In this document: one piece after another, positions 2,173 through 2,660 of the stretch
Numbering within the stretch: position 1 is the first letter of the stretch
Layout: the number at the start of each line of letters is the position of its first letter
DNA from: Haplosporangium gracile
Lineage: Eukaryota > Mortierellomycota > Mortierellomycetes > Mortierellales > Mortierellaceae
DNA: 17,979 nucleotides
Assembly (NCBI GenBank): GCA_015499985.1
Contig: JAAAUF010000487.1
Span: 13,182 to 31,160 of the forward strand
Direction: 5' to 3'
Program-made: the position numbers and the translations under genes
The notes under the pieces: generated by a model
Databases searched by the model: none
Seen by the model: only the letters and a program-made list of their open reading frames with translations
What the model was told of the DNA's origin: nothing

Positions 2173-2660
2173 ATGACTGCTCGCAACGTTGTTTTTTTTC
2201 TTGTTCTTGCATTGGCACTCGCCATAAATGGACTTATGACTAATGCGGCCCCGTTACCTCTGTAAGAGTTCTCTTCATTTGTATGGAGTGAACATGTAAC
2301 TTGGTATAGTAGTACTTGGTACTAACCGTTCACCTTTGTCGTGTTCACTCTTTTGCTGTCACTCCTTCCTATGTATCCAGCAAGTAAGATGTTGATTGGG
2401 TGTCTTTGATGGACCATACAAGCATCTGTTGCTTTGATGCGCCTAGCTGTCCTTAGTACTAACCGCTTATATCTGTCGTGTTCACTCTTTTGCTCTCATC
2501 TCTTCCTATGTATCCAGCCCGTAAGATATCGATTGAGTGTCTTTGATGGACCATGCAAACATCTATTGGTTTGTTGCGTACAACTGTCCTTAGTACTAAC
2601 CGCTTATCTTTGTCGTGTTCACTTGTTGTTCTCATCTCTTCCTATGTATCCAGCCATTAA
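2173..2660 (+). CDS. tiny secreted peptide precursor assembled from two 3-nt microexons (33 aa)
   Basis: The model joins exon 1 (2173-2261), microexon CAA (2381-2383), microexon CCC (2518-2520) and a last exon (2654-2660). The ATG has ACC before it. Residues 1-25 look like a signal peptide: MTAR, a hydrophobic core VVFFLVLALALAI, then NGLMTNA with small residues at -1 and -3. The end reads APLPLNPH, an eight-residue mature peptide if cleavage follows Ala25. All three introns (119, 134 and 133 nt) start GTAAGA, carry a perfect TACTAAC branch site (2320-2326, 2457-2463, 2594-2600) and end ATCCAG. Both microexons are one codon long, so skipping either keeps the frame. In each unspliced form the donor supplies an in-frame TAA. 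The third unit has TTAAGA where the others have GTAAGA, so it lacks a donor and terminates the frame at TAA 2658-2660. I know no homologue, and the role (effector, pheromone or other) is unknown. The splice pattern is inferred from sequence only. Confidence 0.6.

Follow-up and report, generated by a model that had tools for sequence, protein, structure and literature searches.

Can a fungal gene carry exons of only three nucleotides, and what would such exons be for? The question is raised by a short gene in the window, i.e., the whole 17,979-nt stretch of DNA analysed here (G000:C615:13182-31160, in a genome of 37.5 Mb on 1157 contigs). An initial annotation had read this gene as containing two tandem 3-nt exons, each in an intron cassette of its own, from which variants of a tiny secreted peptide would be spliced. 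The fungal origin that it proposed was borne out by five genome matches to the chitin-synthase N-terminal domain PF08407, which we take to be a fungal marker domain, compared with none in 14 control genomes. Our results suggest that the gene probably belongs to a fungal family of small genes encoding short secreted peptides, in which each C-terminal residue would be supplied by a separate, predicted 3-nt exon.

The gene in the window

The predicted gene (positions 2173–2660) comprises an 89-nt first exon, two 3-nt exons and a third acceptor (Table 1). The donor, branch-point and acceptor motifs, as well as the microexons CAA and CCC and the final CCATTAA, lie exactly at the positions given in the initial annotation. 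The pattern TACTAACN{40,60}CAGNNNGTAAGA matched twice in the window and in none of 200 shuffled versions. Because the cassettes are duplicated copies of one tandem repeat of 136–137 bp, the three TACTAAC/ATCCAG pairs are not independent coincidences.

Other parts of that annotation require qualification. Each microexon had been described as one in-frame codon; the frame is indeed kept, but the exons lie in phase 2, so each 3-nt exon spans two codons. Likewise, a hydrophobic stretch is present where a strong signal peptide had been noted, although "signal peptide" is a reading of that stretch. The proposed end at CAT TAA (2660) exists, but its use depends on the loss of a donor, and the terminal exon typical of the family is also present downstream. 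The coding end at 2660 arises because cassette 3 of the window has TTAAGA at the donor position, whereas a GT donor is found in the other 43 of the 44 cassettes described below. The copy on C389, 90% identical over 261 nt, has CGA followed by GTAAGA where the window has its cassette-3 end. Since the usual terminal exon (CAG followed by CTAAGTAG) is present from 2913, transcripts might also leave out cassette 3 and finish at C/TAA. The predicted product has 33 residues with the tail AAPLPLNPH, or the tail AAPLPLNP when cassette 3 is skipped.

The neighbouring genes in the window include those for a protein kinase, a DUF2045 protein and a TMEM208/SND2 protein. Positions 1510–1940 are approximately 73% identical to the sequence upstream of exon 1 on C726, indicating that the duplicated segment reaches well past the gene on that contig. 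In the stretch at 2700–2800, which is not included in the count of 44 cassettes, the branch point and acceptor are unrecognisable, and similar stretches were seen by eye on C1018, C452 and C215. A scan for bacterial promoters and terminators found nothing; its models are bacterial and uninformative on a fungus.

Table 1. Predicted features of the window gene (C615; positions within the window) and cassette arrays of the related copies.
Contig	Position	Strand	Feature	Remark
C615	1874..2172	+	Promoter and 5' leader, conserved among paralogues	BLAST homology starts: C1106 1874, C215 1937, C726 1981, C1018 2081
C615	2173..2261	+	Exon 1, 89 nt	Hydrophobic N-terminus then AAPLP; phase 2 end
C615	2262..2380	+	Intron 1	GTAAGA at 2262; TACTAAC 2320-2326; ATCCAG ending 2380
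C615	2381..2383	+	Microexon 1, 3 nt	CAA
C615	2384..2517	+	Intron 2	TACTAAC 2457-2463; ATCCAG ending 2517
C615	2518..2520	+	Microexon 2, 3 nt	CCC
C615	2521..2653	+	Intron 3	TACTAAC 2594-2600; ATCCAG ending 2653
C615	2654..2660	+	Cassette 3 as terminal coding end	C CAT TAA (CCATTAA); donor position TTAAGA
C615	2700..2800	+	Decayed cassette-like stretch CTGTAAGATACAG in the family terminal intron	Paralogue comparison by eye, not computed
C615	2910..2912	+	CAG acceptor of the family terminal exon	Also in C1018 and C452; TAA there in C215
C615	2913..3104	+	Family terminal exon	C/TAA stop, then conserved 3' UTR
C1106			17 cassettes	Array continues off contig end
C452			14 cassettes	Array continues off contig end
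C1018			6 cassettes	Both gene ends present
C615 (window)			3 cassettes	
C389			2 cassettes	Without exon 1 ahead of the array
C215		-	2 cassettes	
C726				Contig stops within exon 1

A family of cassette arrays

A DNA search of the genome located the gene on six further contigs (C1106, C1018, C452, C215, C389 and C726). Parsing of the arrays yielded 44 cassettes on six contigs, with at most 17 in a row and 3 nt between the AG and the donor in every case. Since a cassette had to match [CT]AG, 3 nt and any of six donor forms to be collected, part of the conservation seen in those letters, and part of the constancy of the 3-nt length, follows from the search itself; the branch point was left unselected. 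In an open search allowing 0–60 nt between ATCCAG and GTAAGA, 3-nt spacers alone were listed, and a pattern for any microexon matched at 37 places, all on contigs of the family, with no control matches. The repeat spacing was 133–156 bp over the 38 spacings within arrays and showed no jump, which indicates that no cassette within an array was passed over.

The arrays on C1106 and C452 may be halves of one gene. At C389:1-261, on the reverse strand, the end of an array lies behind sequence unrelated to exon 1, at the contig end, and could represent either a translocated fragment or an assembly join. In the reverse-strand copy on C215, exon 1 has no donor (ATAAGA) and the terminal exon no acceptor (CATAA). 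These losses, together with the changed third donor in the window, indicate that some members of the family are decaying.

Where exon 1 is complete, it measures 89 or 95 nt, and it ends in phase 2 in all four copies (the C215 boundary being set at ATAAGA). Three paralogous first exons share 66, 72 and 76% protein identity with that of the window; the hydrophobic stretch is conserved in four members and is followed by AAPL in all of them. Constraint on exon 1 is weak (pooled pN 0.15, pS 0.19), and the exon had no match in Pfam. At the other end of the gene, the terminal exon starts with CTAAGTAG or CTAAATAG after CAG on C615, C1018 and C452, and the acceptor ahead of C/TAA is kept in three of four terminal exons. 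Both ends are known solely for the predicted 33-residue product of the window and the predicted 38-residue product of C1018, which ends in AAPLPKPAGIPTGN; the predicted product of C1106 has at least 48 residues. Tryptophan, cysteine and tyrosine are all missing from the four predicted products, of which two are partial, and no protein repeat was seen in them by eye.

The Ala-Pro, Leu-Pro and Lys/Glu-Pro steps past the hydrophobic stretch presumably resemble the dipeptide spacers that are trimmed in fungal peptide precursors. As a pheromone lead, the genome was searched for STE2 without a match; the control genomes likewise had none, so this result says little. Dikaritin-type RiPP precursors are linked with UstYa, and a genome search for UstYa (PF11807) also returned no match, again as in the control genomes.

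The introns between cassettes are conserved where splicing would demand it. All 38 have GT-AG ends and 36 of them start with GTAA; TACTAAC occurs in 26, and the branch point of the remaining 12 differs from it by one or two letters. Mean diversity was 0.084 in the branch-point, donor and AG columns compared with 0.239 in the other intron columns, a difference for which none of 20,000 permutations gave a value as low. Lengths range from 130 to 153 nt, and 20 of the 38 introns are exactly 133 nt long; the spacer between AG and donor stays at 3 nt despite this spread.

Other microexon arrays were sought in the genome with patterns bound to the branch points and distances that they specify. CTAACN{5,34}CAGNNNGTAAGT gave three matches (nine in controls), and TACTAACN{20,50}CAGN{4,33}GTAAGA gave four, one of which was a family cassette (30 in controls). 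CTAACN{40,65}AGNNNGTAAGA gave 43 matches (57 in controls), 29 of them within the family and 14 on as many other contigs, one each. Within the scope of these patterns, further arrays were rejected.

Variation in the 3-nt exons and its possible causes

Among the 44 cassettes, the mean pairwise difference was 0.21, 0.64 and 0.76 at microexon bases 1, 2 and 3, respectively. Across the 136 intron columns, drawn from up to 43 upstream and 40 downstream flanks, it averaged 0.22 with a maximum of 0.66, so one intron column exceeded microexon base 2 in raw diversity, and both bases rank at the top solely in tree-based counts. On a tree of 39 cassettes, five of the 44 being left out for cut flanks, the three bases required 3, 17 and 19 Fitch steps, compared with a mean of 3.5 and a maximum of 9 in the intron columns; these steps assume limited recombination between cassettes. 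The first base, which occupies the wobble position, thus changes no faster than the introns. Because the tree was built from intron columns, circularity was checked with columns held out. On a tree of upstream columns, the downstream maximum was 14 compared with 16 and 18 at the variable bases, and on a tree of downstream columns, the upstream maximum was 11 compared with 17 and 19. When the columns were halved at random 60 times, no held-out intron column reached the count of either variable base in any of the splits. A comparison of nearest pairs, disjoint yet not fully independent, gave a similar picture: the variable bases differed in 24 of 38 cases and the flanking bases in 340 of 2564 (Fisher p 2e-12), with identical microexons in 4 of the 19 pairs. 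In cassettes 2 and 3 of C1018, for instance, the flanks are 97% identical and the microexons read CAT and CCC. The states of the variable bases had no more tree structure than shuffled labels; these bases are saturated.

The phase of the exons gives this variation a particular meaning. In phase 2, each residue would be encoded by the two variable bases of one exon together with base 1 of the exon that follows, typically as NNC. The first base of the microexons is C in 39 cassettes, G in three and T in two, and since NNC cannot be a stop, the codon is nearly stop-proof; change at the two variable bases of an NNC codon always yields an amino acid. Retention of a GTAA intron would stop translation at once (NNG TAA), and the 3-nt length keeps the frame under every pattern of inclusion or skipping. 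T occurs only once in 44 at microexon base 2 (the first codon position), and usage at the second codon position is near even.

Conserved splice motifs, combined with extreme change at only those two bases that determine the amino acid, suggest that splicing and translation do include the 3-nt exons and that the peptide is pressed to differ. This combination would be unexpected from unspliced repeats, intron-borne RNAs or introner-like insertion. The tiny precursor with in-frame 3-nt exons predicted by the initial annotation is likewise supported. That annotation had sought the variants in combinatorial splicing at one locus; beside any alternative splicing, the diversity is predicted to arise from change between copies and loci. 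We infer from the sequence that the 3-nt exons are spliced, that the peptides are secreted and act outside the cell, and that the transcripts may be alternatively spliced. Each gene would then consist of exon 1, encoding the hydrophobic N-terminus and AAPL(P), a series of two to at least 17 cassettes (branch point, AG, NNN, GTAAGA) and the C/TAA exon. Unequal exchange might multiply the cassettes, and selection for novel peptide sequences would then diversify their codons, perhaps with the aid of a mutation process acting locally. The peptides might act as recognition or interaction ligands, and alternative splicing may add further forms. In our reading, diversifying selection or a targeted mutation process would act on the predicted one-codon exons and so generate variable secreted peptides. 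A bolder version, which we regard as tentative, is that the array would constitute a coding device: each residue would have an intron-insulated, nearly stop-proof codon with two randomised bases, and splicing would pick the residues so that many peptides could be made per locus. Here, too, cassettes would be copied by recombination, randomisation would come from selection or a targeted mutator, and the peptides would serve as recognition tags or ligands.

Several other explanations have to be weighed against this reading. If the 3-nt exons are real, a mutation process that locally targets the spliced codon might account for their excess change, and the peptide would be under little selection. 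Both variable bases differ in seven of nine pairs (overlapping ones) whose flanks are less than 10% different, and the lack of tree structure in their states is likewise consistent with such a process. However, the adjacent first exon base, with its three steps, shows no excess, and columns of CpG in the intron consensus stay at nine steps or fewer; we therefore consider this origin unlikely. It is slightly more doubtful that the cassettes are decaying non-coding tandem repeats, with exon 1 joined to a distant acceptor or the peptide ending in a retained intron. This explanation would accommodate the loss of splice sites in two members, the weak constraint on exon 1 and the clean end of the unspliced frame of the window gene at the first donor (APLPL stop). 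A neutral spacer, however, would vary like the introns, whereas four to five times as many changes were observed, and neutral repeats would not hold the branch point.

The remaining two explanations place the function, or the mobility, in the introns. Their similarity in length and sequence would suit hosts of intron-encoded small RNAs, with the 3-nt exons as leftovers, but the window had no Rfam match at gathering score, the mean folding z was +0.40 with none of the 38 introns below -2, and RTGATGA boxes were found in none of the 38 and CTGA in four. The hypervariability of the exons would also be left without a reason, which makes such a role very improbable. Least credible of all is that introner-like mobile introns were inserted side by side, leaving 3-nt target-site duplications. 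Near-identical introns do stand in a row, but all 24 genome matches to TACTAACN{35,65}CAGNNNGTAAG (four in controls) fall within this one family, in disagreement with introners as the term is generally understood, and most adjacent 3-mers are different and not repeats of one another.

Significance and comparison with known systems

If spliced as predicted, these genes would offer a natural test of the lower limit of exon size, as runs of 3-nt exons would seem to demand the removal of introns one by one. Change in the predicted exons outpaces that in the surrounding introns several-fold and is limited to the two bases that determine the amino acid. Because exons of 3 nt often escape gene-prediction programs and read mappers, such families may be overlooked; other fungi could be screened for them with the cassette signature.

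Single 3-bp exons are reported from animals (PMC7392893; PMC8042270). The micro-exon genes of Schistosoma mansoni are described as having a signal peptide and many short exons, mostly multiples of three and from 3 bp upwards, that yield variable secreted proteins; most of these exons are 15 bp, the introns measure 0.1–5 kb, and a conserved aromatic/basic motif with W follows the signal (PMC10526429). In contrast, all internal exons parsed here are 3 nt long, the introns are about 133 nt and do not reach several kilobases, and the W motif is absent, AAPL standing after the hydrophobic stretch in four members. The bicycle genes of aphids are reported to encode rapidly evolving proteins, many of which have signal sequences; their internal exons are small, numerous and almost all in phase 2 (PMC9168663). 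The predicted phase-2 exons of the present family resemble them in this respect, whereas the bicycle genes belong to insects and carry CYC motifs, for which the predicted products here lack both cysteine and tyrosine.

Among fungi, the AGL cell-surface genes of Rhizophagus have introns that are better conserved (63%–71%) than the mature coding sequence (42%–61%), a feature shared with the present family of putative secreted peptides. They differ in having one or two introns by the signal sequence, and the accessible part of that report describes no microexons (PMC8786786). The SP7-like effectors of Rhizophagus likewise form a secreted family with a signal peptide and variable repeats, reported as 6–11 units with nuclear signals in some members. 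Their repeats are hydrophilic with conserved islands and follow a conserved intron placed before the first repeat, and one-codon exons are not described in the accessible part of the source (PMC11333574). Such a layout is absent here, where arrays of up to 17 introns surround 3-nt exons.

By analogy, the nearest precedent is the set of microexons in the NACHT-ANK (nank) genes of truffles (Tuber), which are reported to carry many codon-sized microexons with alternative splicing (PMC3689799; PMC4986451). As far as these accounts go, both cases involve a fungus, many tandem codon-sized exons (matched here by the 44 predicted 3-nt cassettes), a system of diversification and a proposed role in recognition. 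The truffle genes, however, encode STAND/NLR receptors, whereas the predicted splicing here would build the variable tail of small secreted-type precursors. NACHT and ankyrin domains are absent from the present family, whose exon 1 matched nothing in Pfam and whose product on C1018 would have only 38 residues. What is new with respect to the truffle precedent is thus a putative secreted-type peptide in place of a receptor, together with the measured hypervariability of its predicted one-codon exons.
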